NCBI GenBank assembly: GCA_030374765.1
Contig: JARGXX010000071.1
Span: 1,302,001-1,366,000 of the forward strand
Direction: 5' to 3'
From: Agarophyton chilense
Taxonomy: Eukaryota; Rhodophyta; Florideophyceae; Gracilariales; Gracilariaceae
Length of the DNA: 64,000 nucleotides
Part shown: positions 8,463 through 32,000 of the stretch, in pieces
How the letters are laid out: each line of letters opens with the position of its first letter
Numbering within the stretch: position 1 is the stretch's first letter
Translations under genes and position numbers: made by a program
Notes under the pieces: model-generated
Seen by the model: only the letters and a program-made list of their open reading frames with translations
Databases searched by the model: none
Told to the model about the DNA's origin: nothing

Positions 8463-8475
8463 GGCGTCATCAAAG

Positions 8476-9447: not shown

Positions 9448-9992
9448 ACTTATCCACACTGCCGTGTGTGTCGCCACCAGCAGTACTGGTTAAGTTATCC
9501 AATGGTTCTTGGATTGTTGTCATCGACTACCGTCGGTTCTGCACGACTGACATCGGAAAGATACCACCTGAGTTGGTGAATTTTAAAGCCCAGCCATTGC
9601 TGGATGGGCTACCGAATTGTTCGGATCATGAGAGTTGCTGGAACTCGTGGCTTTCAGTAATGCCTTCCGCTGTTCAGCGTTCGATGGCCTGCATACGCCC
9701 AAGGCGCAGAGGAGGGCCATTTAACAGAACTCTGGATGCTTCAGCCCCTCGCAACGAGGATGGTTCTCAGAATCCCTCGCATATTGCGGAAGTTCCCGTT
9801 TCTACGGTAGGGCTAATCTATCCCATCCAGATGGTTGCTTTACCCGCCAATAAGCGATTCCCGCTCTACCACCCACCCGTGGGACTCTCTGATATACCGA
9901 TTCAATCGGACGCTGGCCTGAATGGCCTTTCTTCTCTCACGCCACAGCGCGGTGTCTATCCCCGCCAGATGGGCGCTTCTACCACTCTTTAG
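9237..9992 (+). pseudogene. Remnant of pol: end of protease spacer, scrap of RT and start of linker, element 1
   Basis: The frame opens with sequence homologous to the protease-RT spacer of element 3 (MVNIEPEKSF, SGEKHQYLV). It then shows one RT fragment around DGSWRFCIDYRRL (here NGSWIVVIDYRRF). It then jumps to sequence matching the post-integrase linker (GLSDIPIQSD, NGLSSLTPQRGVYPR). The YxDD box, RNase H and the integrase core are absent. A TAG at 9990-9992 ends the segment, and the same frame reopens and continues to 11108. This is the deletion scar that makes the element non-autonomous. Confidence 0.75.
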
Positions 9993-10235
9993 GTCGCTCC
10001 GTCTAAGGAGGGGGAGGGGACCCGCTCAATCGCGGAAGCATCGCCGTCGCAACGGAAGTTTAACCGGGCACCCCGGGCAAAGCCCCCGAGCGGGCAACCG
10101 GCATCGTCGCCGGACGTCAATCCGCTCCCGCGGGACGCGGCGGTCAACCCGACCGCCACGCAACCCCGCAAGGGGGACCAAGGCGCTCGAAGACCCGAAG
10201 CCGGGAAGCGAGACCCTACGGACGCTCCGCACCGC

Positions 10236-11108: not shown

Positions 11109-11133
11109 ACCGTGAACACGGAATGGAATGGCT

Positions 11134-11152: not shown

Positions 11153-11441
11153 TCCGTCCATGCCCCAACGCGGGGAAGGAAGCAACCGCTCACGCTATCC
11201 CAACGTCGTTGGTGGTCGTTCCAGTTACCTGGTCCGCGCGCGAAGTGCCCCCCGTTAAACACGGAACTCCCAGCTAGGCTGGTTCCCTGAAACGCCGGAA
11301 CCCCGGTTGAAGGCCGGTACCCCAGAAAGAAAGAAGTGGACTTGGGAAAGGGCGTCGGAAAGGCGACCCTCTTCTTTTTATTTCTCACTACTGGCAAGGG
11401 CGCCCTAGCGGCGCCGCCCTACATTCTACCGGAAGCTCCGG

Positions 11442-13094
11442 TCATTCCTCCGCACGAGGTGGACCCCCGCCCAGGCGGTTGGCTAAGGCATCCCGCATGG
11501 CGGCCACATCACCCGAGATCTCGGAAGGGCGAAGCCCCACCTCCCGAAGGAAGCGCGCGATGACCTCGCCCCGCTCCGCGCCAGCGGCAGTTGCGGGCGG
11601 GCCCGCCACCGATGGAGTCGGATAGGAATCCGTTCGCACGGCATCAGCAGCCCCGGATGGAGCCGCACCACCGTATTCAACGGACCCCTCACCGGCCTCG
11701 CCGGACTCGTCATCCCCCATCGGAGCGTAACCCGAATCCTCCGGTTCGTTGTCGACCATCGGGTCACCATCCGCATAGCCGCGGTAATAGTCGCTCGAGT
11801 CGACATACCCTCGCGGGTGGTCGGCCGGGACTTCACGCGGTGCATGCCGGGTGGCTTCCGCTTCCTCACGGCTGATCTCGTGGTACTCCCAGGGGTCGAA
11901 GTAGATGAAATCCCCCGCTAGCGCGGTATTCCTCCCGAATCCGGGGCCAAACCCGCGACGCGGTTGAATGCGTTGGGAGTTCTCCAGCGGGACCTCATCC
12001 CACTGGACCCCCTCCACAAAGTCGAGGAGGCCCAGCATCTCTTCTTCGTTCGCCTCGCCCCCGAGGGGGATGCGCATGTCCAAACGGCGGATCGCAGCCC
12101 GCACACGCGGTGGCACGTACCACAATCGGTATTGGTCGTTCGCCTCAGCGAGGATAAAAGCCGCAGTGCGGACGGCCCATTCGCTTACCACGACGGACCA
12201 CCACCCCGACTGGGGATCGTTCAAGAACGACGACCCTACATAGGTTAAGACTGGGGGCAGCTCAATGAAGCAACCCCAGCACGCCTCCAAGGAGGACCAC
12301 CAGTCTGGGAGACTGACATACCGACCATGTCGGTGAGCAGGCGCGATGCGCTCAATCTCCGTGTTCTGGTACGGTACGAAATACCCGGTCCGGGCCCGCC
12401 AACACCGCTCATCGCGGATGAAGTTCTGAAGGAAGTTCGAGCGCGACTGCCGCGGTTGGTAGCGGAACTCTGCCCGAAGAATCGGTCGTGCCCAGCAAAG
12501 GGCTTCTTGCCGAGCGATCGGTGTGCCCCTCCAAGCGAGGGTTTCCAATCCGTTAAGAAGGTCACAGTACGACATTTCCCCGCGAGTGCGGTAAAGGTGG
12601 ACGTCGAATTCGACCTTTGGCGGTATCGGGAACTCGAAAGGCGCCCGATGGTGCCTGAGATAAGCGATCCGCACAAGCGCGGCCTGAGCCTCCGCAGAGG
12701 ATTCACCGCGTCGGCGGAGTATGTGATGTACCGGGATGGCGATACGATTACGCCAATCCCAGGACATGGTCACCACGCCGGGCAGGTCGCCCGGGAGCAT
12801 CTCCGAATTATCGGTGTAGGATTGGATCAAATCCTCGTAGCGGACAGCCAATGGGTGAAACCAAGGCGCATACCGCAACATCGCGGAGCCATGCCAAGTT
12901 CTCGGATTTGCACCCACAACGGCGTCGTAGGTCGGCCACTGCGGTGGGTCCGCCTGTCCGCGAAAGCGGGCGCCAATACGGCGGTCTTCGTACGCGAGGT
13001 TGGTAACATCCCCAGGGTGGGGCGCGGACCGGAAGCCAGTGGAACCGCCAAGGGCGGGAGTCGCGGATGTGTTATGACGGTCGGGGTTGGACAT
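11442..13094 (-). CDS. Antisense accessory protein (aORF) of element 1, intact, function unknown
   Basis: A 550-residue gene lies on the strand opposite to gag-pol, between the chromodomain and the 3' LTR. The ATG at 13094 (MSNPDRHN) was chosen because element 3 starts MSNQNNQ at the equivalent place; the longer frame reaches a TTG inside the LTR. A low-complexity N-terminus (about 1-70) is followed by a Trp/Arg/Pro-rich central region (about 90-400) with LRYAPWFHP, LPGDLPG, WDWRNR, FVPYQNTEIER, IELPPV and EWAVR. Next come a DPWEYHEISREEAEA motif, a strongly acidic Asp/Glu/Tyr segment (about 420-500), and a short helix-forming end with GDVAAMRDALANRLGGG. Elements 2 and 3 carry clear but diverged homologues. 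I recognise no family and no catalytic motif. Expression would need a promoter in or near the 3' LTR reading inward. Confidence 0.75.
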   Translation of the reverse strand: MSNPDRHNTSATPALGGSTGFRSAPHPGDVTNLAYEDRRIGARFRGQADPPQWPTYDAVVGANPRTWHGSAMLRYAPWFHPLAVRYEDLIQSYTDNSEMLPGDLPGVVTMSWDWRNRIAIPVHHILRRRGESSAEAQAALVRIAYLRHHRAPFEFPIPPKVEFDVHLYRTRGEMSYCDLLNGLETLAWRGTPIARQEALCWARPILRAEFRYQPRQSRSNFLQNFIRDERCWRARTGYFVPYQNTEIERIAPAHRHGRYVSLPDWWSSLEACWGCFIELPPVLTYVGSSFLNDPQSGWWSVVVSEWAVRTAAFILAEANDQYRLWYVPPRVRAAIRRLDMRIPLGGEANEEEMLGLLDFVEGVQWDEVPLENSQRIQPRRGFGPGFGRNTALAGDFIYFDPWEYHEISREEAEATRHAPREVPADHPRGYVDSSDYYRGYADGDPMVDNEPEDSGYAPMGDDESGEAGEGSVEYGGAAPSGAADAVRTDSYPTPSVAGPPATAAGAERGEVIARFLREVGLRPSEISGDVAAMRDALANRLGGGPPRAEE

Positions 13095-13251
13095 GGTGCG
13101 TGTTGGTGTGCTGTGGTTGGAATCGGATGCGGAGAGCGTGCGTAAGATCCTTGGTGAAGGTGTGTTGGTTTCCGGAGACCCGGTGTCGGACACGCTCTTA
13201 TCATGACGAGCTGCAATGCCGACTTCCTCTTCGAGGTGTTCGCCCTGTCTT

Positions 13252-13264
13252 AAGGGAGAGGATA
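13252..13264 (+). other. Polypurine tract of element 1
   Basis: AAGGGAGAGGATA abuts the 3' LTR (TG at 13265). Elements 2 and 3 carry AAGGAGGGGGATA-like tracts at the same place, as expected for plus-strand DNA priming. Confidence 0.8.
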
Positions 13265-14127
13265 TGAAGAGCAACGTCCTCCAGGGAGGTTTTTGGGGAC
13301 TTAAGTTTTTCCGGAGCCTCCGGCGTGCAACCTCGTTATGAGTAGGAGTAATCCGTTTTCACGGCGATGGCCGGAACGCCGGTGATGCACCGGCGGGACC
13401 GGGTGCCATACACGTGGCCGCAGCGCCCGCGCGACACGCGGCCGCTAGATTGGCCCCTTTGTTAGACGGACATTTAGCTATTTAGGATAGACTTTATTTA
13501 TTTTATTCTACGGTGACTACAGTACTTAGGCCGCCGGCCTCGCGGCGGCCGGTCCGGTAAAGTCTCTTCGACGAGGGTGATCTTGGTCTTCCAGATCTTG
13601 GATCTGGGTCGAACCGCCTGCGCGGATATACAACTCCTTACGGAGGGATTTCCCGTGGTGCACGGCTTCCCAACCCCCTTGGACGTTCAAGCAGCCTTCG
13701 TGTGTTGGGTATCTATTCCCACTTTCGTGGTTCCGCTCGTGTATACGGTTTGCTACACCCGGCAGTGCCGGCTATTCCCGAGTCCCCTCTTGCCACTCGT
13801 GGTCAACCTCGCCCTCTTGCCTCCGTTCCCATTTTCCTTCCCTTTTCCTCCCCTTCATTGGGCAATTCCCGCTCTTGTGGCTCGCACTGACACCTGTCGT
13901 GCTCGGCACTCTCGTGGGTTTTGCCTCCTCAGAGGATACGCAAGCACCGCTTCGGCGGATATTCTCGGCTTCTTTCAGCCTCCCTGCGCCCGTCGCGACG
14001 GTTCGGCTCCGGCTTACACCCGGCATTGCGCGCCGATCCCTGGGAGGGCTCTACCGCGCCGGTTACCTCGTGAGAGGAAGATCCGGACGTCTTCGTAGGT
14101 TTTCCCCCTTGGGGGCATTGTCCTACA
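13265..14127 (+). repeat. 3' LTR of element 1
   Basis: The 863-bp repeat runs from TGAAGAGCAACG to TCCTACA and is followed directly by the target duplicate TTATC. About ten substitutions and one deleted T separate it from the 5' copy. Confidence 0.93.
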
Positions 14128-14237
14128 TTATCTAACATCATTCGTTTCTCAGAAGTGCGAGAACCTTTCGATATGACATCGAGGAGTGACTTGCTCTCCG
14201 TAAGTAACTGCACCGGAACTCTGCTTTGGGTAAGCAA

Positions 14238-16046
14238 TGAAAGACAATGCCCTTCAAGGTGGATTCTTCCCAGGACTTAGACTTTTCGCTCGCTTTAGAA
14301 CTAGCTTGGTCTATGACAAGCTATACCACTATTGCGTTCCGACGGCCGGTTAGGACCGAAAGTGCACACTGGTGGAACACGTAAACTGCACGGATGCCGA
14401 CGCTCGTGTGCAAGGCGTGCCACACGTTGCCCGAATTCTACGTAATGGTTAGTATTATTTGGTATTTTTTAGTATTTATTGAGCTAGGCTATCGCTATTT
14501 AGTGTTTTTTTTCGGGCGCGCGCCCACTGTCAGGGGCCGTGCCCCACCCTACTTAGAAGGTTGAGCATTGCTCCCCAGTAAACACCCTCTTGGGGCATCC
14601 CAAGGAGGGAGTCTTGGCTCTGAAATTTTCGCCTTCGGCGCGTCTTCACCGCATACTGCGTGAGCGCTCGTCGCACGTTAGGTCATCCACCCCTCTGTCG
14701 ACCTGAGTGCTACCACCACCGTGAGTTCATATTTAATAGCCGACACTTGTCGTAGTCTCGCTCCTGTATAGGGTTTCGCCCCCGTTTTCCTCTTGTTCTC
14801 CTTTTTGGCTCTCGTGAGTGGCTGCCTCACTCACCTCGCTCGCCCCCCTTGTGGAGCAAAACCCGGCGACGGGAAGTGCTCTCAAGGTGTTCGAAGCCTT
14901 GCTCCCTGGGGGAGGCAGACTCAGAGACAGAGCCCTCCGTTCCACCCGTAGTGTGGGATGTAACTCCCACGGAGATTCCGGCAGTACCGACGGAGGTGAG
15001 GGGTAGAAACCGTTGGGTAGGGAATGGGTATGGGTATCCCAAAGAATGGGGGAAAATCCGGCGAAGAGAAAAAACGGGGCGAGTGTCGGGCACTGACAGG
15101 CACCGGACCCGAGAACCAGAAAAGGGGCGAAACAACAAAAGAAACCCAATACAGGGGCGAAAACCTGTCCTTGAAAGGACACACAAAAAGCACGCAACAA
15201 GTAAGCAGAACCCCCACGGGGTATCGTGCACGCAGGTCGTCTGAGCGGTCCCAAGGGGGTGGTTGCACGGAACCCAAACGTGGGCACTCTCCAAGTGGAG
15301 TCGTGTCCCTACGCAGGCGTTGCTAACCAGAGCCCGTTCCGGGTTGTAAGGCCGAAACGATGGCGACGAAGAACCTCTAAAGGTATCGAAGACCAACCTT
15401 GGTTCCCATTTTACTCTGAGCTTCGGACTGTCAGATCTCGTCTCCCTAAGTAGGGCCCACTAACTAAACTGTACAGTAGTGCACACCTGCTCAGGGCCAT
15501 ACACGTGGAGATCCCACTGCCAGGGCCCAAAAGTCCAACGTTCTAACAAATATCCGAAAAATCGGTGCCAAAATTAAGCCACGTGTATCACGGGGCCAAT
15601 CCAACCATGGGCCATCCGAATCTTCCCTTCATAGGCGAACTCTAACCAGAAGACCGTGCCACCTCAGAACACCTTAGAGGGAATCATAGTCATAACCCTC
15701 GGAGGGTTCAACCCTCATTCTATGAGTTGCATCTTCAAGTATCCCCTAACTGGGCGTTGCTCTACACCCCTCATACAAGTGTTTCCTGGCTCCTTTTCTG
15801 ACAATCGCCGTGATACCGCTCCGCCTAGGATTGTTCACAACCTGTACTGTGCCGTGCTAACCTAAAAACTCTAGGTATATCCCGCCGGATTGGCCTCGGT
15901 CTTACACCCGACTCCGTCGTGCCTTTTCAGAGTGGCTCTGTTTCTGTGCTCCGCTGGGACTCGTCTCCTCCGCCTGAGGCGTGTATCTCAAGAGAGGAAG
16001 ATCCCGAACATCTTCGTGGTGTCTCCGCTCCAAGCGTTGTCCTACA
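14238..16046 (+). repeat. 5' LTR of element 2, split by a solo LTR
   Basis: LTR sequence occupies 14238-14849 and 15772-16046 (about 887 bp when joined). It starts TGAAAGACAATG and ends CCTACA. A conserved 7-bp stem with a 7-nt loop (GTGAGTG at 14814-14820, CACTCAC at 14828-14834) lies just before the insertion point; the right LTR keeps the stem with one loop change. Confidence 0.88.
14850..15766. mobile_element. Solo LTR inserted in the 5' LTR of element 2
   Basis: The 917-bp segment has inverted ends TGTGGAGCAA and TTGCTCTACA and is flanked by a perfect 5-bp duplication CCCCT (14845-14849 and 15767-15771). The other LTR of element 2 lacks it at this point. Scattered similarity to the LTR of element 3, including CACGTG boxes near 15495 and 15580, suggests a related family. 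It contains no genes. Orientation is uncertain. Confidence 0.85.
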
Positions 16047-16049
16047 AAC

Positions 16050-16068
16050 TGGTCTCCCGATTTAGAAG
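16050..16068 (+). other. Primer binding site of element 2
   Basis: TGGTCTCCCGATTTAGAAG, one base different from elements 1 and 3, starts three bases after the LTR. Confidence 0.8.
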
Positions 16069-16211
16069 TTTGGGTCGGGCACAGTCAGTCATGATTAATC
16101 GGAAAGAGGACTCACAAATTGAGGTTGAGCTCAGTGGCCCTCTTTGAGAAAATGTTTTGGCCCCACTAGCCGATTGGGTTTGGATACTCACATGTAACGG
16201 ATTCTGATCTC

Positions 16212-18272
16212 ATGTCGTCCAAAGACCGTCCGAGGACGCGGAGTCCAACCGGTGCACCGGAACCATCGCAACCATCCCGCATCCCGGTCCGTTCACGGTC
16301 TCATACCGATGGATCGACTGGCGTGCCAGGTGGAAGGACTTCGAGACCACCTGTCTCTGATTCGACACCCCCATCAAGTGGAGCAGGACCGGCGTCTGCA
16401 GCCGCCCAGATGCTCTCCCCTGCTAGGGATGTCACTCTCCATCCCAGCTTTGCAGCTGTGGAAGAGCAACTCCGCTCTATGCGGGAAGCTCAAGTCATCC
16501 TTACAGAGGAGTTCGATTCCCTTCGCGAGAAGGTAAATGACACTGCTACGCAGAATTTTTCTGAGGACCTCCATGTCATCCGTGCGGATGTGAACTCGAT
16601 TCTAGAGGCTTTTGGTGGACCCTGAACCTTTGTCAAGGACGTCGCGGACAAGTTCTCGCGCGTCCAAAGCCGTCTCGAGACGTTGGAACAAACACTAATG
16701 TCGGGGCATGATCCGGCCGAGCTGGTTGCAGTATCCCACAAGGGAAATAAGGAAGAGAACTGCCACGCTCGGAAGAATCGAAGAAACACGGATCCCGAAC
16801 CGTCAGACTCCTTATCCTCGGAGTCCGACTCTTCCAATTCATCGGTGTAAGTAGCTCGCCGTGAGCGTTCTTCACGCTCTAAGCGGTCAACAGCCAACCA
16901 TGGTGTGATCCGCGCCCGCACGAAGGGAAAGAAGCACACAGGTTTGAAGGAGCTGAAACCGACCAATTCGCTCTTTAAGAAGCTCTTATCATGCCGTTAC
17001 TACCGTTTGGAGGACTCCTCTTTGGATCGTACACCCCGTGGTACGGGAAGGGTGAAGGACTGCAATAAGCGAGTGCAGCTCTCATTTCGCAACCAGTTGT
17101 TTTCTGGAGAAGACCCAATATTGGTGTTGGATTTCTTGGCACGCTTTGTCGCGGAAGCTGACATCCTTCGAATGAACGAGGTACAGGCCTACATTTCCTT
17201 ACCGTACTTCTTACATGGGCTTGCAGAAGACCAGTATCACTCTGTCAGAGGTTCATCACGCGCGTCCGAAGGAGGCATAACCTGCTGGCCCGAAGCAGTT
17301 CAGTACCTTCTGAGGTCGTATGCTACTAACTCCGCCATTCAGCAGGCTATACTCGCCCTGCGGGACACTCGCCAACGTCCAGGCGAGTCGGAAACCGATT
17401 ATTCGTCTCGCCTTAACAAGGCCTACCACCGCTGTGGCAATGTTTACCCCGCTGAAAAGCGTTGTACTATGTTTGTCGATGGTTTGGACCCGGCGATCCG
17501 GACTCTTGTTGCTCGACGTTAAGAAGATAGACCTAAAGCCACGTATTTGGAACTAGTGCAGTTCGCTCGTGCAGAAGGTGAAGCCCTGCGCGCATGCACT
17601 CCTGGCCCCAGGGCTAGGTCCGCAAAAGCGTTGATGTTACAACCGGGTACCCCGTCAGCTTCGATGATCGACGAACAGGCCTCTCGAAGGGATTATGATA
17701 ACGTGCAGCTAGCCCATAGCCACGTTCATTCCATCCCGACAACGGAGTTACCCTCAACCCTGGACGAGTCACAATACGTGTTTGGGGACGACACGCTACT
17801 CTATGCGGGTAATGGTCGCGTCCGTGCGCCACGCGTCCCACACGAGAGTGGTAACACCCGCTTTTCGCGTCCTGGTTGGAGAGATACCCGCCCCGCCGTG
17901 AAGTTCGCCGAGCCTCGCCACCCAACGCCGGCTGCTGGTCTGATTTTTCATCTCTGCCACAAACCAGGCCATACTTCTCCACAATGTGTGTTGTCTCTCC
18001 GAGAATGGGCACAAGTCGTAGTCAATTACGAGGCCTTATCCTCGGAGGACAAAGCAGCTGTTCCGATTGCATCGTATATCTGTGCTCGAACGGATGTTCC
18101 ACGTCACCTGTCGCTTCCCCGAGCTCGGGTAGTACCTGCACCGGAATCCCGTGTCGCCGACGTGGTCGGTCACCCCACCGCTTCTGCGGTACCTTCTGGA
18201 CCTGATGCCCAGGCGTTGCCCGCTCAACGCCATGAGCAACCGCCTACGGCGGAGCAGGCCCAGAAAAACTAA
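16212..18272 (+). pseudogene. gag: Gag pseudogene of element 2
   Basis: One reading frame from the ATG at 16212 to the TAA at 18270 aligns over its whole length to the gag of elements 1 and 3. It is broken by in-frame stops at 16623-16625 (TGA), 16848-16850 (TAA) and 17520-17522 (TAA). The coiled coil, Ser-rich block and gag core are all recognisable (for example YRLEDSSLDRTPRGTG and GLDPAIRTLVAR). The zinc knuckle has lost its first Cys (FHLCHKPGHTSPQC). The three stops plus the lost Cys rule out function. Confidence 0.88.
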
Positions 18273-18300
18273 ATGTGGGAGTCGCCTCTCAAGGAGAGGC
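18263..18300 (+). promoter_or_regulatory. Relic of the -1 frameshift signal, element 2
   Basis: G AAA AAC at 18263-18269 directly precedes the gag TAA. A perfect 7-bp hairpin follows: GCCTCTC at 18284-18290, an AAG loop, and GAGAGGC at 18294-18300. The stem sequence differs from elements 1 and 3 but still pairs. Confidence 0.5.
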
Positions 18301-20437
18301 AACCTCAGAGTCGAGGTCGACGGCGCCCGAGGCGTCCAAGCCTCGCTCCCTCGTAAAAATCCTTTCAAGGAAAGAGGCCGTCAATGACGGGAACTTGGAA
18401 CACTTTCGTGTTCTGCGTCGTCCGTGGAAACGTGTTTCCCATAACCGGTTCCCGGATAGAGTTCTGGTGATGGCCAAGAGAAACTACAAGGTCTATGCTG
18501 ACCTTGGCCTTTCACCCCAGTTTATGGTGCGACACCTTACCGTCTTAGACACCGGTGCCGGTCCGAACTTTTTCGTGGAGGAAGTGTTACCGCCTGCACT
18601 GCAGTCTAGAATCCGCCGCGACCACGTCCCGGAGGTCGCTGATGCGAACAACAAACCGTTGAATACGGTGGGGTTCATAGAACTGGTAGTCCGCGTTGGC
18701 GCTCGCGTGGTGAAACTCGACTTCGTCGTATGTAGGAAATTGGCCGCCCCACTCATCTTGGGTTGCGACTTTTGCGACCGCTTCGCCGAAGCGATCTTCC
18801 CCCGACAACGGCATGTCGAGATGGAGGATGGATCGTCCACTCCGATCGTTCGTCGCCCGCTTAGGCGTGTCACGAAGAAGCATGTCCCGCTACCGGCACC
18901 AAAGCAACCTGGACCGGATAACCGTGAATCTAATAAGCTCCGTGTCGCAGCGTCATTGTGCGTCCCGCCTGAGTCCCAAATGATGGTGAAAGTAACCTCC
19001 CGTCAACACGGACTCCGGGTCTTGCAACCATTGTCGTCACTGTATGACAGGCACAGCCTCGCAATTGCGAATGAAATCGTCCATGTGGAGCCAAACCAAC
19101 CGTTTCACGTGCTGATCTCCAATCTAGGCACTGTACCCCAGTATCTGGTGAAGAGCCAAGTGATAGGGTCTGTCATGCCGCACCCCATCGCTATGGTGCC
19201 GACAAAGCTGACCGCAGCTGACGTTCTCGCACTCGTTCACTCTAAGGAGGGGGACAGCCCGGAACCCGTTTCATCACTGGTACCCGGGGTTCAACCTGTA
19301 ATATCAGGGACGCAGCCCGTTTCAACGAATGGTGACCGCCCCGATCCAGCCCAAGAACTCGAGGACCTGGATCTCAGCCACGACCTGGAGTCAAACCGCC
19401 ATCGACTGCGAGAACTTTTAAGGGACTACACCACTATGTGGGACGGCTCCCTTGGTGAGATTGCCACTACGGAACACCGGATTGATTTGCTACCGGACAC
19501 CCGACCCATCTCTCAGCACCCATACCGTGCCGGCCGCGCCGCACGCGCGGAGGAAAGGGCACAGATGGATTAAATGCTTCGAGCAGGAGTCATTGAACCG
19601 GCTCAGTCGCCGTGGGCTTCTCCAGTAGTACTGGCTCCAAAGCAGGATGGTTCCTGGATGTTTTGCGTCGACTACCGCCGGTTGAATACCGTCACCGTCA
19701 AGGACGTGTATCCAATCCCAAGAATGGACGACTACATTGACTCGCTAGGCACCGCCACCGTCTTTACAACCCTGGACGCCAATTGGGGATATTGGCAAGT
19801 TCCGGTAAGGAAGCAAGACCAGGATAAAACCACTTTCGCGTGTCCCTCCGGTCTCTACCGTTTCAAACGGATGCCTTTTGGTCTTATCAACGCCCCCGCT
19901 CCTTTCCAGCGAGCCATCGACATCCTATTGGCCCGCTTCAAATGGCATACCTGCCTGGTCTACCAGGATGACATAATCGTATTCTCAGATAACCTGGACA
20001 AACATCTCACTCATGTGAGGGATATCATGACCACGCTTCGAGATGCCGGTGTCACTCTTAATTTGAAGAAATGTGACTTCTTCACGGACACCCTGAATTA
20101 TCTCGGCCATGTTATCCGTCCAGGACGTGTTACAATCGAGGAAACTCGTGTTAAGTCACTCAAAGAGGCTAAAGAACCGCGGACGCAAACCGAGCTTCAT
20201 TCCTTTCTGGGACTCGCAAACGTCTACCGACAATTCATCCCGCACTTTGCGGACAAGGTTGCACCGTTAAACGAGCTTTTGAGGAAAGGCCAACCACCAA
20301 AACTGGACCCCTTCACCCCCGTTCAAACGGAATCTTTCAACTCTCTTAAGGATTCTGTCGTCTCCGCCCCGATCTTCTCGTTGCCCAAGCCTGGAAGGCC
20401 CTTCACCGTAGATACGGACGCCAGCGACTACAAGTAG
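18275..20437 (+). pseudogene. pol: Protease and reverse transcriptase region of element 2 pol
   Basis: This -1 frame holds the aspartic protease (LDTGAGPNF at about residue 90), a conserved spacer (SRQHGLRVLQPLSSLYD) and the reverse transcriptase from about residue 420. RT blocks include SPWASPVVLAPK, FCVDYRRLN, LDANWGYWQVP, RMPFGLINAP and YQDDIIVFSDN. The catalytic box reads YQDD where element 3 has YLDD. A TAA at 19571-19573 replaces the Lys codon before MLRAGVIEPA. The frame ends at 20437 because one base is missing within the RNase H start, which keeps its DTDASDYK motif. The protein cannot be complete. Confidence 0.88.
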
Positions 20438-23280
20438 GTTGTGCACTGTTTCAAACTGCACCGAATGGGGAAAGACGCCCCGTAAGGTACTGGTCCCGAT
20501 CGCTCAAAGTCCACGAGAAGAATTACTCCGTCTCGGAGAAAGAATGCCTTGCTATAGTGTGGGCATTACAAACGTTGCGCCCCTATCTCATGGGTAATCA
20601 TTTCACCGTTTTCACGGACCACGCATCACTTCGATGGCTACACTCCATCTCGGAGCCTTCAGGCCGCTTGATGCGTTGGCGTCTCCGTCTAGCGAAATTT
20701 GACTTTGACGTGCAGTATCGAAAAGGATCGTGCAACACCCAAGCCGATGCTCTCTCCCGCCTGGTCACTACTGGCGAAGCACTACCCATTAAAGACGATA
20801 AAATACCCTGCTTTGCAGTGAATGGCGACGAAACTACCATCGAGGACGAGGAAGGAGACACGGACTCTTCAGATTCCGGTTCCGAATTGGACGACTTTCT
20901 TCTCTCGGAAGATTCCGAGAAACCCTTACCAGGGAACTTCGTGCCTTTTACTCCAGAGGAGATGATACGGGAGCAATTCGCTAACCCGTTACGCGCGAAG
21001 GTCCGCGCTCAACTCAATGGAGGAGGTACTCTCCCCTTTAAGGTGAATGACGCCGGATACCTTGTACGGACCGTCGGATCGCATCCACAAATCGTGGTAT
21101 CACATAACCTCCAGTCGAGAGTCTTGCGGTTGTCGCACTACTCCAAACTGAGTGGCCACGTCGGGGGACGGAAACTTTACCTCACCCTACGCCGTAACTT
21201 CTACTGGCCTGCCATGGCAGTAGACTGCTACGCAACGGTGCGGTTTTGTACCGATTGCGCTCGGAACCGTGTCAAACTCCGCCGTCATGCGACGAAGTTG
21301 AAGCTGTTTCCAGCTCGCCCTCCATTGGAGTTTGTGGCCATCGATATACTCGGTCCATTCCTTACCACTATGCGGAATTACAAGTTCTTACTCGTAATTA
21401 CGGATCGCTTCTAAAAGCTGGTCCGGACCGTACCGTTACGGAAGATCTCCGCTATGAGCGTGGCTCAAGCCTTCGTCCTACACTGGGTCTTCGTCTACGG
21501 CCCACCGGTCAACCTCCTCTCCGATAACGGGAGACTGTTCGCCTCTCGTTTCTTCGAGGATGTGTGTCGCATCTTGGACATTAAGAACCTGTTCACGACC
21601 ACTTACCACCCCCAAACTAATGAGCAGGCCGAACGGTTCAACCGGACATTACTTGCGACACTCCGTTCTTACGTTGCAGACCACCCCAAAGATTGGGACT
21701 TGTTCACTGATGCGCTCACCTTTGCGTACAATACGCAAATGCACAAGAAAACTGGATTAACACCCTTCGAGCTGGTACTGTCCCGTACCCCACCGCCTGT
21801 GGCGCTGGAACCACAGCCCACGCTCGATACCTTTCCGTCACCGACTGCTTACCGCGAAGCGTGGAAAACTTGGCTCGCGAAGCTCGTCGCCGCCGCACGG
21901 CGTTCAATGGGCCGAGCCCAGGCCGCTTACAAGCCTGACTTTGATACCAAAGCCCCTCAATCGCCGCCACGTCTCGCCCCCGACGGTTATGTATTCATCC
22001 GCAAGGAGTATTGGAATCTAGAGAAGGAGAAACGCCACAAGCTGTCACCCGTTCCCGACGGCCCCTTTCGGGTTATTTCGGTGGCTCCCGACACTGTCGT
22101 TGTTGACCTCGCTGGTAATCACGAACGCATCTCCCGCGATCGCGTGGTATCGGCTCCTCCGCCGTAAACATCCTATCCAACTGGTGTGACTGCTCCCGTT
22201 GAAACGGATACATCGACCTCCTTACCCCAGGTCCACCCGCGTCCCTACGTGTTACCACACCCATTTCGGGGTTTGTCTGACCTTCCGCTACCCGCGGCGC
22301 CCAACCCGCAAGGAATCGTGTCGCGCATTCGTCGCTCCTCCCCAGTCCAACCGACGGACACCAACCCCGGTGCATCGTCTAAGGAGGGGGAGGCGCCCGA
22401 CAGCCGTCGTAATCCGGTCGATGCCGTCGCTGGAAACGCCGCACCGTCGCGTGTCATTCTTCGCCCATCAGGGGTGCCTGATACCAACGTCCTCCACGAC
22501 TCGACGCCGTCGCTATCCAAGCCTCAGAACGCAGCTGCGGTTAACGCCACCAACACCCACCGGGGTGTCACCACACGTGCAACACGGAATGCAAATGCGC
22601 TCGATGCACCGCAGCCTGATACAGTACGAGTGGACGACGCCCCGCCAAGTACCCCGCACAGGGAGGCGGATACATCCACGGCGCCGACGCCGGACAGCCA
22701 ACCATTGGAACGCTCAGTTGACTACACGGAACCTCGCCGTGGGACAGAGAGGTGCGACAATGCGCCACCGCCCCAGCGAATCTCACCGCAGAAGCGAGCT
22801 TCACTACGCCGATTAGAGGAACGACCACGCGAGTTACCCGCTAATGTGGGCCCTCCAACCGGAGTGGGAAGCGCCGAAACAAGCCCGGAACTTGGGGAAA
22901 ATGAAACGTCGAAGTCGGGTCGACATTCCACTCAGCCGAGGACTGCCTCGCGCGCTACACGGTTCGACCGGAGCGAAGCCGCCCAACGCGTGATCACTTC
23001 GCTACCTCCTGGCTCAGGACGGGAATCACCCGGAAATAGCGACACCGTCATACGGGATGGCCGGGAAGTGCACCGACAAGAGTTGGTGGTCGGACGCATT
23101 CTGGAGCACTCCTACCACCCAGAGGGGTATATCCAATACTTGGTCCGTTGGTACGGGTACGGCCCCGAATGGGATTAAGACGAATCGATAGAGCACCTAC
23201 CTCGGTCAAAGGTGGTACAGTATCATCGTCGTACTATCACGGCTTTTCCGGCTACCATAGACCGAGCCCAAGTGAGATAA
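20438..23280 (+). pseudogene. pol: RNase H, integrase, linker and chromodomain region of element 2 pol
   Basis: After the one-base loss near 20436 the homology continues in another frame. It holds RNase H (SEKECLAIVWAL, FTDHASLRWL), the integrase zinc finger (His pair then CTDC), the DD35E core (AIDILGP, LLSDNG, NEQAERFNRTL), the GPF/Y module (DGPFRVISV), a Pro/Ser/Thr-rich linker and a chromodomain (ELVVGRILEHSY, RWYGYGPEWD). In-frame stops occur at 21412 (where DRFSKL is expected), 22165 and 23176 before the natural end at 23278-23280. These are three independent lesions in addition to the frameshift. Confidence 0.88.
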
Positions 23281-23492
23281 GAAGACACCCGATGGGGATA
23301 AAGGAACAGAAGATCCGGATAAGGACCCTTGGAAGAAGGAAAAGATGCACAGAAGACCTTGAAAAGGACACTCAGAAGAAGTGGAAGAGAAGAAAGAAAA
23401 CAAATACGTCATAGACGGAAGCAGTCTACCATTTTCGAAGTTGCTGCACACACTACCGCACAGCGGGATATACTAACCAAGATCACAAGGGA

Positions 23493-25162
23493 TTAGTTGG
23501 AAGAACCCGGATTGCCGTGCTCGCCAACCAAATCGCTAGCGGAGTTACTCCCGCCGGCCAGGCGTGCCGCGAAGGCGTCTCTCATCGCACCGATGTCGCC
23601 GCTCGCCCCTTGCGCGTTCAGTCCAACACCCCGAAGGAACTGGGAGATCAAGACCGCCTCTGGGCGTATGGGAACCTCGATAACTTCCGGTTCGTCCGGC
23701 AACGCCGCCGCCACTGGATCGATGACCGCACCTGCGTGAGTCGCTCCGTGCGCCGGCTGCGCCGTAGTATCGGCACCATCAGGATCTCCAACGTCTTCCA
23801 TGACCTCTTCGCCACGGTATTCGCCCTCCTCCTCCGGGAGATCATCACCGCCATAGGCGTAGTAGAAGTCATCCGAGTTGAGAAACCCCACGAGGTGCCC
23901 GTATGGTATGCCTCGCGGAGCCATCCGGAGTGCCGACGCCTCAGCCTCGGAGATCTCTTGCTGCTTCCATGGTTTAAAGAAGATGAAATCTCCCGCCAAC
24001 GGCGTCTGACGCCCCGGAGACCGATCAGCCCCACCGGCTTCTTGACCACGGCCGCTCTGCCGGACAGGCACGACAGCCCAGTCGACACGCCCAATGATGT
24101 CGATGAGCTCCTGAGCTTCATCAGCGTTATTAACAACTCCAAGAGGGAGTTGAAGGTCCAGCTGCCCGACGTAACCACACAAACGCGGAGGAAGATACCA
24201 CAGTCGATACTGGTCGTAGGCTTCCGACAAGATGTACGCCGCGGCGCGGACTGCCCATTCGGTTAGGACGACGGACCATAAGCCGGAGTGCGGATCCTCG
24301 ATGAGGTACGAGCCCAGATAGGAGACGACTGGAGGCAACTCCACGTAACATCCCCGGCACACCTCGACGGAGGACCACCACCCAGGCAGGGGAACCTATC
24401 GCCGGAACTGATAGAAGGGACTAATCCGGTTTATCTCCGTGTTCTGATAAGGGACAAGGAACCCAAAGCGAAGCGAAATCTGCCCCGACGCTCCTCGCGG
24501 ATGAAGTTCTGTAACCACCGATATCGGGACTCACGACGAAGATGACGGAACTCGGCATGAATGATCGGACGGACCCAGCAGATCGCTTCTTGACGCACTC
24601 GCGGTTGACCGAGCCATGCGTAAGTTTCCAACGCTGCAAGGCGTTCACGATAGCCGATCTCACCCTGAGTCCGGTACATCCGTAGGACGAAGCCGAATTC
24701 GTCGGGGATGGGGTATTGGAAGTTAGCCCGGCTGATCCGTGAGTAACCGATGCGGACGAATATACAATGCGCCTCTTCCGCCGACTCGCGCCTTCGCCGC
24801 AGAATCACGTGAATGGGAACCGCCACACGGCGTCGCCAGTCCCACGAAGTGGTGATCAAAGCCGGCAGCTCGCCCGGGAGACGCGCATTGCCATCAGCAT
24901 ACGCGGCCACGAGTTCTTCGTCGAATACCGCTGTCGGATGGAACCACGGAGCTCTCCGGAGAATCGTCGCATGTTGACGCGGGTTTAACCCGACGAGTTC
25001 GTCGTAACTGGGCCAGGAGTCCTCCGCAGGATTGATGTGGCTTAAATCTTCAACGGAACCCCAGGACCGGCTTGGCGCGGTTGACGAGGCACTCCCCCGC
25101 GGAAGGGGAGTCGAATGGAAACCGGAGAAGTAACCCCGGCGGGGATTGTTACCACCGTTCAT
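23493..25162 (-). pseudogene. Broken antisense accessory gene (aORF) of element 2
   Basis: The minus-strand homologue of the element 1 antisense gene begins at an ATG (MNGGNNPRRG) at 25162 and ends at 23493. Shared blocks include LRRAPWFHP, LPGELPALITTSWDW, VRQEAICWVRPIIHAEFRH, GCYVELPPV, SEAYDQYRLWYLPPRL and the C-terminal GDIGAMRDAFAARLAGG. A frameshift near 24470 and a TAG at 24396-24398 divide it into two frames. It sits convergent to pol, 210 bp after the pol stop and 240 bp inside the 3' LTR, the same place as in elements 1 and 3. Function unknown. Confidence 0.78.
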
Positions 25163-25388
25163 CGGGAGTACTGGTCGCCGAGGTATCGGGATGTGGTCGC
25201 GGGAAGTTGGCGTACGATGCAGAAGAGCGCTCGAAGTTCGAGGAGTGGGTACCGCGTTGGTGCGTTTGTCGTTCTGTTGTGCAGCTCTGCCTTCGACAGT
25301 CGAGTGGTCGCTGGACGCGTTACGCGGCTCGCTCCGATGCCGGTTGGACCGTTGACTCCCCGCCATGTCGACGGCGTGTTCGTCACCT

Positions 25389-25401
25389 AAGGAGGGGGAT
25401 A
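25389..25401 (+). other. Polypurine tract of element 2
   Basis: AAGGAGGGGGATA directly precedes the LTR start at 25402. Confidence 0.8.
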
Positions 25402-26008
25402 TGAAGAACAATGCTCTTCAAGGGGGTTTCTTTGCAAGACTTAGAGGTTTCGCTCGCTTGAGGAATAGCTTGGGCTATGACAAGCTATACCGCTATTTCG
25501 TGCTGACGGCCGGTTAGGACCGAAAGTGCACACTGGTGAAACACGTGGATTGCACGGATGCCGACGCTCGAGTGCGAGGCGTGCCACACGTGGCCCGGAT
25601 TCTACCTAATGGTTAGTAATATTTGGTAATTATTTGGCTATGCACGAGATATTTAGTATTTATTTTTCGGGCGCGCGCCCACTGTCAGGGCCGCGCCCCA
25701 CACTACTTAGGAGGTTGAGCACTGCTCCCCAGTAAACACCCTCTTCGGAGATCCCAAGGAGGGAGTCTTGGCTCTGAACTTTTCGCCTTCGGCGCGTCTT
25801 CACCGCATACTGCGTGAGCGCCCGTTGCACGTTAGTTCATCCACCCCTCTGTCAACCAGAGTGCTACCACCACCGTGGGTTCATATTTAATCGCCGACAC
25901 TTGTCGTAGTCTCGCCCCTGTATAGGGTTTCGCCCCCGTTTTCCTCTTGTTCTCTTTTTTGGCTCTCGTGAGTGGCCGCCTCACTCACCTCGCTCGTCCA
26001 CCTCATAC
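25402..26008 (+). repeat. 3' LTR of element 2, left part (the rest is at 38032-38301)
   Basis: The LTR starts TGAAGAACAATG and is interrupted after CATAC at 26004-26008 by element 3. CACGTG boxes lie at 25542-25547 and 25587-25592. Divergence from the 5' LTR is clearly higher than between the LTR pairs of elements 1 and 3. Confidence 0.88.
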
Positions 26009-26929
26009 TGTAGTGCAACGCCAAGGGCGGCGGAAACACACGAAGATGTCCGAGTCTTCCTCCAAGGAGGATAGCACGGCGACGGAGCCTCTCCGGAGTG
26101 AACACGACTAAGTCGGGGTGTAAGGCCGAGGTTCACCGGCACGCCAAGCGGGGAGAGTGCGGGATGCTAGAAGGGAGCAGACCGGGTATGAGCTGTATTC
26201 CACGGGAGTGGGCAAGTCTCGAGATCGAGTAGTGTACCCACGGGAGTGGTGGTAAATACGGTAAGCCGGCGCGCGACGAACGCGGGAGCGGCACGAACAA
26301 CCAACCACAAAGCAAAAGGGGGAGCTACCACGAGAGTGGGTAAGCGATAAAGGGGGGACCACCCAGTGGGGGCGATCGGGGGCATGGGCCACGAGAGCCA
26401 AAAGAAATATGTAGCGAACCCAATACTGGGGCGAGAACACGGCAGTGGTATGAACAATATACACGCTAGAAGCGGTGAGTCTCCTGTTGACGCAGGGTGG
26501 ATAAGTCTACCGTTAGTAACGCGGCTTCACCTCGGTAGAGTGTGGAAGACTCGCGAAAGCGGAAAAACACTTAGAGCCAAGAACCCTGGTTGGGGAGGTT
26601 TACTGAGTGTCAGGGCGAGATCGCCCTGGCACTATATAGTGTAGAATACTCTAAGGACCTCCCTAATCTAGTGTAATAAAGCTAAATAAATAGAGAAATA
26701 TCCAGCTATGCTATGCCAACCTGTCCTGGGCTACCCGTGGTACACGTGGTAAGTCACACCCGAATTGGGGCCACGGCGCACGTCCGCCGGTGCACTTCGC
26801 GTACAACGCGTATACACCTGGCTACGCCAGCCCGCTAGTAGCTGTATTACTCATAGATCTCACAAGTATCGCCCGAGGCGGAAAAACAACCAAGTCCTGG
26901 AAAACGGCCCTCACGAGGGTTGCACTTCA
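26009..26929 (-). repeat. 3' LTR of element 3
   Basis: On the plus strand the 921-bp repeat runs from TGTAGTGCAACGCC to GTTGCACTTCA. The inner edge is set by the polypurine tract at 26930-26941. A CACGTG box lies at 26743-26748. Confidence 0.92.
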
Positions 26930-26941
26930 TATCCCCCTCCT
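26930..26941 (-). other. Polypurine tract of element 3
   Basis: On the minus strand AGGAGGGGGATA abuts the LTR, matching elements 1 and 2. Confidence 0.8.
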
Positions 26942-27198
26942 GAGGCGCGAGTACGACATCCGCGATGGTGGGCGCCGCGCCGAGACGAATGCATAAGAGT
27001 GCAACCAGCTCGCTGGGATCCACTTCATCCGATGCCAACAAACGCAGTGCGGCAAAACTCCAGTCTCCTGGCAACAACCGTTCTCAACGTTCCATCTCAA
27101 CCGAATCCGCATTTTTGCGTGCCAGTCCTCCGATTCCTCGGCATCGTCTTCCGCTTCGCCGGTCTGCTCTTCCGGTCATCCGGCCTCTTCGCTAACCC

Positions 27199-28892
27199 AT
27201 GAGCAACCAAAACAATCAACCCAACCGTCTCCCTGCGGGGTACTTCTCCGGCCTCCGGTCCGCTCCACTTCCGCAAAGCGCGTCATCGGCTGCGCCGCAG
27301 ATTCCTATCGCAAACGCGGCTGCTGCTCCCTACAGAATGTTCCCCCCGAGAGGGTGGCCGCCATTGTCGGGCGCCATCCTGGGCATCATGCGTCCGTTCT
27401 CCGGCTCGCGCCGTGGTTCCACCCGATTGCGGTGTTAAACGAAGCGCTCATAGCGATGTACACCGATGGAAACGGGATGCTTCCGGGCGATATTCCGGCC
27501 GTGGTGACAACTTCGTTGGATTGGCGACGTCGCGTAGCGGTTCCGGTCCACGCTGTGGCGCGCCGGGGTAGTGGAACCTCGGCTTCCGCTCATGCGGCCT
27601 TCGTCCTTCTTGGCCATCAACGGCTTCGCCGGGCTCCTTTCGAATATCCCATCCCCGATGGTCTCGGCACCGACATTCGACTTTACCGCACTCAAAGTGA
27701 GATTGGTTACCTCGACCGCCTGGCGGGTTTGGAAACACTCTCGTGGAGGGGCGTCCCGATAGCACGGCAGGAGGCCATGTGCTGGACGCGACCGATTATC
27801 CGGGCAGAATTCCGCTACATGCGTCGACTTGCGCGGGCCAACTTCCTCGCCCTGATCCGCTTCGAGCGTCGAGCACGATCCCGATTCGGGTATTTGGTCC
27901 CGTATCAGAACGTGGAGATCGAACGCCTTCGCGTGGCCGACCGACGGGGTCGCTATGTCCTCATTTCACCGTGGTGGTCGAACCTCGAGGCCTGCCGGGG
28001 CTGTTACATCGAGCTGCCACCAGTCATCACGTATTACGGTTCGTACCTCATCGAGGATCCCGAGTCCGGACTGTGGTCGGTGGTGATTACCGAATGGGCA
28101 GTCCGCGCGGCGGTGTTCATCCTGTGGGAGGTGTATGACCAGTACAGACTGTGGTTCCTCCCGTTCCGGTTGAGGTCCGCGATTAGCAGCCTGGACCTGA
28201 GCATCCCACTTGGTGGAGTAACCAACGCCAAAGAAGTGGCGGGTCTTCTCGATTACATCGACTAGTTGGACTGGACCACCGTTCCGATTGAACAAAGCGG
28301 GCGCACCGTGAGTAGCCGTGGTCAGGACCTGTCACCAGGAAGGCGTACTCCCTTGGGAGGTGATTTCGTATACTTTGACCCTTGGGAAGGGCACGAAATC
28401 TCCGCGGAGGAAGCGAACGAACTCCGGTTTGCACCACGCCATATCCCCGAGGGGCATCCGATTGGTTTCGCGGACGCGGATGAATATTACCACGTTTACG
28501 ACGGCGACGATCCAATGGTGGACAACGAACCCGACGACGGGAAAGCGTACGCCGAGGCGGAGGTCGAGGGATCCGACGCGGAAGGTCCCTATAACGCGGG
28601 GACGCCAGCCACGCCTTACGTGGATTTGGATAACCCCGCGGGGGCTGGGTCGGAATACGCGGTAGCTGGACCACCTCCGGTTCCACCGGTGAATCTCCCA
28701 AGTGGTGGGGCGTCCGCCCCAGGCGATGCGAGCTCCGCTCCGGTGGGTCAAGCGGCCGTGATCTCCCAGTTCCTGCGACAGGTGGGGCTGGGGCCCAACG
28801 CAGCGAGTGGCGATGTTGCCGCGATGCGCGAGGCCTTGATCACCCGCCTCCAGGGAGGTAACCAACCCGGGGGCGGTGATCCGAACCCGTGA
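27199..28892 (+). pseudogene. Antisense accessory gene (aORF) of element 3, broken by one frameshift and one stop
   Basis: This gene reads opposite to gag-pol. It starts at the ATG at 27199 (MSNQNNQPNR), 270 bp inside the 3' LTR, and ends 180 bp short of the pol stop. Blocks shared with the intact copy in element 1 include LRLAPWFHP, LPGDIPAVVTTSLDW, ARQEAMCWTRPIIRAEFRY, FGYLVPYQNVEIER, FDPWEGHEISAEEA, GDDPMVDNEP and GDVAAMREALITRLQGG. A frameshift at about 27357-27372 and a TAG at 28263-28265 interrupt it; outside these the frame is clean for 303 and 208 codons. The lesions look recent. Function unknown. Confidence 0.78.
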
Positions 28893-29071
28893 CGGGGCAC
28901 GCGATCCCGATGGGGAGTTTTCCCTTGTGACTTAGAGTAGTATCCCGAGTGCTCGGTATTTCATCGATAGCTTCGAATAAAAACCAAGTGACTTGTGTAA
29001 CCCAAAACCTTCCTTCACTAGCCTGTTCTCAAGCAAACCTACTTCTCTTTTCTCTTCCACCGAGGTGGGTG

Positions 29072-32000
29072 TTATCCCACCTGGGCTTTAACAACCGATG
29101 CCGGGATTCCCGTCCGCGTTCTGCGATGATATGACACCACCTTCGAACGTGGGAGGTGTTCCATCGGCTCATCCGAATCCCATTCGGGCCCTAAACCGTA
29201 CCAACGGACGAGGTATTGAATATAACCATCCGGATGGTATGAGTGCTCCACTATGTGGTCGACCACGAACTCCTTCTCGTAGACTTCCCGCCCTTGCGGT
29301 GTACGCGTCACCGGACCAAACCGATGTACGTCCGCAGGTGCGTGTGGGCTACTGTGCCCTTCCCCCGAGGGGTCCATGGGCTGGCGTTGCCTTTCCATGC
29401 CCTGGGTAGGGGAACGAACCGGGTTCCGGGTTGCCTTGGCCGCTTGGCGGGTTGCTTCCGCCAAGGCGTCATGACGAAGAGCGTCAGTTCGACGGCTTCG
29501 GCCGGAGGCCTTCCCGTGGGGCAATTCTCCCAGTTTTTGGGTCGGAATGCTTTCCGAGAGTTCTCGTGCAGAGGCCACCCTTCGGGGGAACGTGAACTCA
29601 TCCCAAGGCTGGGTTTCGCGGTCGCGTTCCGCGAGTCGTCGGGGTGAAATCGGTCGCGACGGTGCTGGACTTGACACGGGAGGCGGTTTCATCACGGGGC
29701 ATCGTGCCTTGCCGGGTGAGCCGCCTTGGGCGTTGATTGGTGTATCTCCCGAGCCGGGTGCCGTCTGGTCACGTGACACGTCCGACTGATGGCTGGGAGT
29801 ACTCCGCGCTGTGCTGCGTTCCGCCTCCTCACGTGAGGGCGTGTGCAACGGCGCTGCCGGTATGTCTGCTCGCTTGGGCGACAAAGTACCGCGACGGGCG
29901 TGCAACTCCGGGTCAACCGTGCCTTCCTCACCAACGGACGGCCAAGTGCGCGGCGAGGAACCCCTGCGGGGAGCGAGTTCGTCCTCAACTATCCCTTTCG
30001 AGGGTTCAACTTCACTCGGCGACGAGGTGCTTCCGTCCTTGACGGGCAAATTCTCCGGGGTGACCGGTGCGCCTTCGACAACGCGGTCGGGGTCAACCGA
30101 GACACTCGGAGTGCGTCCGCCACTGCGCGCGGGTTCTGAACCAGCATCAAGCGTGCTGGGTGTGAATCTCCCGTCTGCTACGGTGTGCTTGCCCGGCTTA
30201 GCCGGTGTGTCCTGCCGTACAGTACGAGGGACCACTTCCGATCGATTCGGCCTAGAGGGGCCTGCAAGGGCGTGCTCTAAGTTTTCCAGCGTAGCTGGTG
30301 TCGACGAACCGTGACCCACGGGCTGCGGGTCCACGCTCGATGGCATAGCCGGTCCAGTATCGCGAGGGCGAACAGCATCCTGCGGCGATTTCGGTTTCGC
30401 TTCGGCGAGAGGATTTCCACTACGTGGTGCGTCCTGTCGAGTATAGTCCCCGTGGGGAGTGCGATGAGACGCAGATGCGATGGCGCTTCCCATAGAGGGA
30501 TCAGCAATGGCTGTAGCGCGCAGATGCGGAGATGGCACGTCGGTAGACGGGACGTCCGGATCACCGTTGTTCTTTCTGGTGTGTCCAGGAGTCCGTGCAC
30601 CACGGTTGTCATGACGCGACGAAGCGGTTTCCGTCTCTCGAAGAGAGTTATGAGCTTCCTCCCCCTCCTGAGACGGAGCGACATGGGGAGTGGTTGAAAC
30701 GCCCAACGGGCGGGGGTAGACACCGCGCCGTGGCGTGAGAGAAGAGAGGCCATTCTGCCCTTGGTCCGATAAGATCGGCAAGTCAGAGAGTCCCCGGGTA
30801 GGGTGTGGTAACGCAGAAGGTCTGGAAACCACGGCAGTGGGCTGAGCCACTGTTGTGTGCCGAGCACCATCATCCTCAGAGAGGGATTGTTGACCCATTT
30901 CGGTTACTTCCAACGTCGGTGGCGGGGCGAGTACAACGCGGTCGCGGGAGATCCGCTCATGAGCGTCGACAATTTCCACCACGATGGTATCGTTTTTCAC
31001 CGAAATGACCTTGTAAGGACCGTCCGCGACGGAAGAAAGCTTGTGCTTCTTTTCCTTTTCAGGGTTCCAGTACTCCTTACGGACGAAGACGAAGTCACCG
31101 GCTTTGATTGGCGGGGCCTTACCGCGTACGCGAGAGTCGAAATCACGCTTGTAAGCGGCTTGGGCACGAGCCATCGAGCTTCGGGCAACCGGGATCAGCT
31201 TCGTAAGCCACTCTTTCCACTTGTGGCGATAATCCTTCACGGAAGGGAAGGCATCCAGCGTGCGCTGGGGTTCTAACGCGACAGCGGGTGGAGGGCGGGA
31301 TAAGACCAATTCAAATGGAGTTAAACCCGTAGTACGGTGTACCTGCGTATTGTACGCGAACGTCAAGGCGTCGGTATATAAATCCCATGTCTTTGGGTGA
31401 TCGGCAACGTAAGAACGGAGAGACGCTAATAGCGTTCGGTTAAACTGCTCCACTTGCCCATTACACTGGGGGTGATAGGTCGTTGTGAACAGGTTCTTGA
31501 TGTCAAGAATCCTGCACACATCCTCGAAGAATCGCGATGCGAACTGTTTTCCGTTATCGGATAGAAGATTAACCGGCGGGCCGTAGACGAATACCCAATG
31601 GGTTACAAATGCTTGTGCAACCGTGAAAGCGGATATCTTCCGTAGAGGTACGGTCTGAACCAGTTTTGAGAAACGATCCGTGATAACGAGTAAAAACTTA
31701 TGTCCACGTCGTGTGGTGAGGAGCTTACCGAGAATGTCAATGGCGACAAACTCGAGAGGAGCCCGTGCCGGGAATAGTTTCAACTTCGTTGAGTACTTGC
31801 GAAGTTTCACCCGATTCTTATGACATTCGGTACAAAATCGCACCGTTGCGTAGCAATCCACCGCCAGGGCGGGCCAGTAGAAATTCCTTCGCAAAGTGAG
31901 GTAGAGCTTCCGTCCACCGGCGTGTCCACCAAGTTTCGCATAGTGCGATAGATGCAAAACTCTAGACTGTGGAGTATGCGGCACCACGACTTGTGGGGAT

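Follow-up and report, generated by a model that had tools for sequence, protein, structure and literature searches.

A conserved gene on the strand opposite gag-pol in chromodomain gypsy elements of the red alga Agarophyton chilense

We examined a stretch of 64,000 nucleotides from the red alga Agarophyton chilense (assembly GCA_030374765.1, contig JARGXX010000071.1, positions 1,302,001 to 1,366,000 of the forward strand), which we refer to as the window, and searched the genome of 79.8 Mb in 135 contigs for related sequences. A comparison of the window with itself identified 3 nested long terminal repeat (LTR) elements, here called E1, E2, and E3. As a first-pass annotation of the window had claimed, all 3 elements contained a frame that ran opposite to gag-pol in the interval from pol to the 3' LTR, and these antisense open reading frames (aORFs) were homologous to each other. 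The same annotation described 3 genes of about 550 to 560 codons. This was correct for E1, in which the aORF was intact and consisted of 550 codons from ATG to TGA (11442..13094, minus strand), whereas the copies in E2 and E3 were broken and the frame of the E3-type elements was longer, with about 644 codons. The E2 aORF (23493..25366, minus strand) contained a frame change near 24.4-24.5 kb and 2 in-frame ATG codons, one at 25162, which was the start in the first-pass annotation, and one at 25366, nearer the LTR. The E3 aORF (26965..28892, plus strand) contained 2 in-frame stops and one frameshift, as called against an open relative, and likewise had 2 candidate starts, at 26965, which is kept in the E3-type elements, and at 27199, as annotated earlier.

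The E1 element (5342-14127, plus strand) was flanked by the 5-bp target duplication TTATC (5337-5341 and 14128-14132) and had LTRs that were 98.6% identical. Its 5' LTR (5342..6205, plus strand) was followed by an open gag frame of 706 codons (6320..8440, plus strand), a pol remnant (8476..11108, plus strand), the aORF, a polypurine tract (13250..13264, plus strand), and the 3' LTR (13265..14127, plus strand). The E2 element started at 14237 on the plus strand and contained a polypurine tract (25388..25401, plus strand) immediately before its 3' LTR, which started at 25402 and within which E3 was inserted. The E3 element (26009-38026, minus strand) had a target duplication of 5 bp, GTATG, an LTR identity of 98.3%, a 3' LTR at 26009..26929 (minus strand), an open gag frame of 748 codons (34816..37062, minus strand), and an open pol gene of 1676 codons (29072..34102, minus strand). 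The polypurine tracts at the 3' LTRs of E1, E2, and E3 ended with GGAGGGGGATA or a similar sequence. All 3 hosts had been annotated as gypsy elements. For E3 this assignment held, since the pol protein contained reverse transcriptase (RT), ribonuclease H (RNase H), integrase, and a C-terminal chromodomain, as in the definition of chromodomain gypsy elements, with a chromodomain match (E 1.3e-4, 22.2 bits) under the Pfam cut-off of 25.1. The E1 remnant retained the pol start, fragments, and a chromodomain, but neither RT, RNase H, nor integrase, and for this element the assignment did not hold in full. It was also noted that more than 700 residues separate the integrase core (to residue 878) from the chromodomain (from residue 1612) in the E3 pol protein.

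The start of the aORF differed between the element types. In the E3-type elements, an ATG separated by about 35 bp from the 3' LTR was kept in all 29 copies that covered the site, among 30 examined, which gives the frame of about 644 codons. E2 had an ATG in frame at a similar distance, about 35 bp, from its own LTR. The first 80 codons of the E3-type frame were weakly coding-like, with 0.029, 0.032, and 0.039 differences per pair at codon positions 1, 2, and 3. In the E1-type elements, the 160 nucleotides before the ATG varied like third codon positions (0.045 compared with 0.042), and the start of the E1 aORF was therefore taken as 13094. Because only about 35 bp separate the LTR and the ATG, antisense transcription most likely begins within the LTR, and we infer from the sequence that an antisense promoter resides in the 3' LTR, which would be its likely site also in E1. 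At the other end, an AATAAA motif was present past the aORF stop in 3 of 5 families, including E1, about 60 nucleotides past the stop (11377..11382, minus strand), and E3, 83 nucleotides past the stop (28976..28981, plus strand). In the gap between pol and the aORF, all 5 elements read (E1, with the gap at 11109-11441, E2, E3, and the elements L061 and L062 described below) contained a purine-rich 40-mer on the gag-pol strand, possibly a second or ancestral polypurine tract.

Searches of the genome with tblastn identified the E1-type aORF at 79 or more places, the E2 aORF piece at 123 or more, and the E3 aORF piece at 130 or more, of which at least 78 had an identity of at least 91% and were taken as E3-type. 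Two further groups, P0004 and P0008, were found at no fewer than 77 and 92 places, respectively. These counts represent separate lists that were not merged, and one place (contig C105, about 1263 kb) occurred in the lists of both P0004 and P0008. The genome thus contains at least 5 aORF families, each at high copy number. One element was read per family, with L061 and L062 representing one each of the P0004 and P0008 groups. In both of these, whose LTR ends were not delimited, gag-pol occupied one strand, and the opposite strand contained, downstream of pol, an open aORF of 631 and 608 codons, respectively, so that the aORF was antisense and on the 3' side of pol in all 5 elements read. Within the E3-type, the family in which occurrence across copies was tested, most copies contained the gene: a listed aORF was located 1.5-6 kb downstream of 64 of the 72 integrase places (median distance 3141 bp) and was antisense at 63 of them, while 14 of the 78 listed E3-type aORFs had no listed integrase.

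A few other features were observed outside the aORFs. On contig C68, at about 3138-3158 kb, 3 E1-type aORFs occurred at an exact spacing of 9197 bp, as would be produced by a tandem array of elements with shared LTRs. Within the window, the 5' LTR of E2 contained an insert of about 920 bp (14850-15771) with no second match in the window, and an open frame of 624 amino acids at 2125-3999 (plus strand) encoded DDE_1 and Tc5-type helix-turn-helix domains, as in the transposase of a DNA transposon.

To describe selection on the frame, we used the 30 best-scoring copies, by protein score, of each of the E1-type and E3-type families. In the E1-type sample, the ATG was kept in 29 copies and 23 copies were without stops or frameshifts. 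In the E3-type sample, 13 copies were free of stops, 19 were free of frameshifts, and 8 were both open and unshifted. The first-pass annotation had named 2 observations that would speak against a gene, a ratio of nonsynonymous to synonymous substitution rates (dN/dS) near 1 and a frame kept open by constraint on the sense strand. Neither was found. The pooled pairwise dN/dS values were 0.50 for the E1-type and 0.65 for the E3-type among the copies picked by protein score. Furthermore, in 5 pairs of families compared frame by frame, the aORF frame had no stops and the highest identity, whereas the 3 sense frames contained 3 to 27 stops. The aORF frame stayed open between families that were only 33% to 36% alike, and synonymous sites were near saturation between families (proportion of synonymous differences 0.69-0.79, of nonsynonymous differences 0.33-0.54). 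With 5 families in the genome, and with the aORF alone open in the 5 family pairs, the occurrence of this frame is far beyond chance.

Variants were then split by frequency and compared with the neutral ratio of nonsynonymous to synonymous changes (N/S), obtained from 1000 random placements that preserved base and CpG context. For the E1-type, the ratio was 0.74 of neutral N/S for singletons (4 of the 1000 placements were as low), 0.69 for variants present in at least 2 copies (17/1000), and 0.54 for those in at least 3 copies (11/1000), and the shared variants included no stops where 5.1 were expected (4/1000). For the E3-type, singletons were at 0.90 of neutral N/S (119/1000) and variants in at least 2 copies at 0.68 (30/1000), with 2 stops compared with 3.6 expected; variants in at least 3 copies were at 0.67 (143/1000). 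The core of the E3-type frame differed by 0.026, 0.021, and 0.038 at codon positions 1, 2, and 3. As judged from these sequence patterns, the aORF is a real element-encoded gene under selection, and the distribution of variants fits a gene that is selected between transpositions and freer to change after insertion. An alternative is that an antisense RNA matters rather than a protein; the frame would then be open simply because the sequence is rich in GC or because the other strand is constrained. Non-coding antisense RNAs have been described for other elements (PMC7264820), and the E1 aORF stretch is indeed GC-rich (63% in the copies L066 and L067). However, the codon-position bias, the depletion of nonsynonymous changes, the frame that remains open while the others hold stops, and a confident protein fold, described below, already disfavour this explanation, which we consider very improbable.

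The protein blocks noted in the first-pass annotation as common to the copies were real and recurred in proteins that were 34% to 65% identical to the E1 aORF protein. Ten arginines were invariant across 8 sequences. The architecture consisted of an N-terminal arm, basic in 4 of 5 families, a core of about 380 residues that was rich in arginine and mostly helical, and, last, an acidic tail. A first AlphaFold2 run with 12 sequences gave a mean predicted local distance difference test score (pLDDT) of 59, and searches of PDB and of viral models with it were empty or gave chance matches. A model of the core had a pLDDT of 85.4 and a predicted template modelling score of 0.86; the structure search with this better model covered PDB. 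The annotation had recognized no known protein, and database comparisons agreed, with nothing credible in Pfam, NCBIfam, or PDB: no Pfam match for the 4 pieces from the window at E<=10 and a best E value of 0.039 among 18 sequences, a best E value of 0.34 in NCBIfam, and no matches to PDB sequence profiles. Pattern-based scans, one each, of the GTDB genomes and IMG/VR identified no relative, and the elements' own gag had no profile similarity to the aORF protein (hhalign probability 0.1). A possible SAP-like character of the C-terminal helices was dropped, as there was no Pfam match. The only named relatives, in keeping with the red-algal host, were 3 predictions from Gracilariopsis chorda, the 'hypothetical proteins' BWQ96_03215, BWQ96_10156, and BWQ96_05177, which, judging by their sequences, are probably element copies.

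The position between pol and the 3' LTR is that of env-like genes (PMC7264820), and the product might on these grounds be an env-like or membrane protein. However, the gene is antisense, and no transmembrane-type hydrophobic segment was seen in 7 sequences (highest 19-residue Kyte-Doolittle mean 1.57, with no dedicated predictor run), making this the least probable of the explanations considered here.

Among 10 pairs of families, the identity of the aORF core (0.36-0.59) tracked that of RT (0.58-0.78) with a Spearman correlation of 0.93 and that of gag (0.55-0.72) with a correlation of 0.90, where each family was represented by one element and the pairs are not independent. These identities indicate that the aORF has been inherited along with its element and diverges more rapidly than RT or gag. 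The fast evolution of the core beside pol, together with the high copy number, would suit a family-specific anti-silencing factor, one that frees the members of its own family from DNA methylation by the host or from silencing by small RNAs. VANC of the plant VANDAL elements is a model for such a factor. We consider this decidedly unlikely for the aORF, since defective copies would have no need to retain a factor acting in trans; no homology to such factors was seen, and none was tested for.

Defective copies have in fact kept the gene. E1 is without RT, RNase H, and integrase, yet its gag and aORF frames are open. Its junction region, of 501 bases, was found at 34 places in the genome, and 10 of the 79 listed E1-type aORFs were located 1743-1745 bp from such a place. 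Five further junction places were read, of which 2 contained the aORF, one of them with 2 stops, and 3 (L068-L070) did not contain it at that place. The expectation that all 34 junction copies carry the aORF was thus not borne out: the gene is known from 12 of them (10 listed and 2 read) and is missing from that place in 3, and 19 are unread. The 3 exceptions had a different pol tail, 65% to 66% like that of E3, and a purine tract about 14-25 nucleotides past the pol stop; they may be aORF-less relatives or chimeras, or the aORF may lie further on. Integrase has also been lost separately from the aORF. The E1-type element L063 contained RT and RNase H, no integrase, and a retained aORF, and its junction was whole at 33 of the 40 listed places (40 of 263 candidates were scored). 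L061 likewise had an aORF and no integrase, and 24 of its 40 listed places (541 candidates) had a whole junction. In both of these families, there are also members that contain RT, RNase H, and integrase, as seen in L064 and L065.

Retention of gag and the aORF beyond RT and integrase would be expected if each copy needed them in cis. The aORF protein could then be a structural or packaging component, required by each copy like Gag, with its own antisense mRNA setting its amount apart from Gag-Pol. This is in line with the open gag and aORF of the RT-less E1, the 12 RT-less junction copies known to have an E1-type aORF, the pooled aORF dN/dS of 0.49 in 5 RT-less copies, and the aORFs of the integrase-less L063-type and L061-type forms. 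On the other hand, the RT-less copies were no closer to each other in the aORF than to other E1-type copies, so that recombination could have refreshed the gene; one of the 2 newly read copies with an aORF had 2 stops, 3 of the 5 newly read places had no aORF there, and the protein has no profile similarity to gag. Youth and recombination are alternatives to a need in cis, and we regard a packaging role as unlikely. A broader proposal is that the elements have a third core gene, in reverse orientation, which encodes a new-fold family, has been co-inherited with gag and pol in at least 5 high-copy families, is kept with gag after the loss of RT and integrase, and is needed in cis by each copy instead of serving as an optional regulator; this seems doubtful to us.

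The explanation that we favour, and to which we give an even chance, is that the aORF is an accessory gene of chromodomain gypsy elements. Its mRNA would most likely start inside the 3' LTR, run against gag-pol, and stop before pol, and the product would be soluble and about 550-650 residues long. By analogy, this protein most likely acts in the nucleus, where its target would be DNA, RNA, or chromatin of the element itself, and most likely favours the expression or replication of the family to which it belongs, in the manner of the antisense aORF proteins of plants or of antisense regulators in retroviruses. The sequences show the gene, its position, a shortage of amino-acid changes, its inheritance together with the element, and a confident model of the core. 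The nuclear site, to which the basic N-terminal arm is the one pointer, the nucleic-acid binding, and the positive role are inferred from such systems, and a nuclear accessory regulator would accordingly rank first among the functions, followed by a particle or packaging protein needed in cis.

Several observations weigh against this explanation. The AATAAA motif past the aORF stop was absent in E2 and L061 among the 5 families checked, and the only TATA-like site near the ATG in 4 families scanned, with LTRs covered in part, was at -168 in L061. The choice of copies by protein score biases the selection results towards conservation, and the depletion among shared E3-type variants is weakly significant at the frequencies given above, the more so for variants in at least 3 copies. 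No listed aORF was found at 8 of the 72 E3-type integrase places, and L068-L070 had no clear similarity to 16 aORF proteins in the approximately 0.97-0.99 kb after pol (best E value 0.004 over 38 residues). Finally, the N-terminal arm of L061 is not basic (isoelectric point 5.4), the E1 core is slightly acidic, and no known nucleic-acid-binding domain was found in Pfam or NCBIfam.

The first-pass annotation had compared the gene, as a conserved protein-coding gene of an unfamiliar kind, with the antisense aORFs of plants, and this comparison holds; the regulator, RNA chaperone, or host-defence antagonist that it had suggested are candidate roles. The plant aORF-3R genes of Grande (gene23), RIRE2, and PvRetro13 have the same layout, with the aORF antisense between pol and the 3' LTR, and an antisense promoter of its own and a nuclear protein have been reported for Grande (PMC7264820). 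The elements described here differ in that no matching domain or homolog was found, the host is a red alga, the elements have a chromodomain, and the aORF is retained in forms without RT and without integrase. In Retand, an antisense ORF encoding TRP28 is likewise conserved across many elements and a regulatory role has been proposed (Vicient 2025, PMC11963269). The TRP28 domain is Transposase_28 (PF04195, as named in PMC7264820), and Retand is a non-chromovirus lineage, often with tandem repeats; here, TRP28 was not found in Pfam scans of 4 and 18 sequences, and positions 5000-38500 of the window contained no such repeats. Outside plants, the Boty element of the fungus Botrytis also has an aORF in antisense orientation at this position (PMC7264820), the likeness being one of layout only. 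Among algae, the mobile element Sola1-1 of Ectocarpus has an accessory gene that is encoded on the opposite strand, although that element is a DNA transposon and its gene encodes ParB-like and methyltransferase domains, neither of which was matched here (PMC12477816).

The aORF probably works like HBZ of human T-cell leukaemia virus type 1, an antisense gene driven from the 3' LTR, to which it is likened by layout and not by sequence. HBZ is retroviral and overlaps other genes, whereas no sense gene is visible in the aORF stretch. The antisense promoter of that virus is located in its 3' LTR (PMC7264820).

No report of an antisense gene in red-algal LTR elements was found in the open-licence literature, a scope that most subscription papers fall outside. 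While the layout is known from Grande, RIRE2, Retand, and Boty, what appears to be new is the family of proteins, together with its retention in derivatives that are RT-less or integrase-less. For annotation, the 3 hypothetical proteins of Gracilariopsis chorda can now be recognized as relatives. Antisense genes have been described in LTR elements of plants and of one fungus, with no known function (PMC7264820). To these, the aORF adds an example that has a confident fold model, occurs in a deep range of families, and is separated from RT and integrase in natural deletion derivatives; its role is therefore directly testable by expression, localization, and binding assays.

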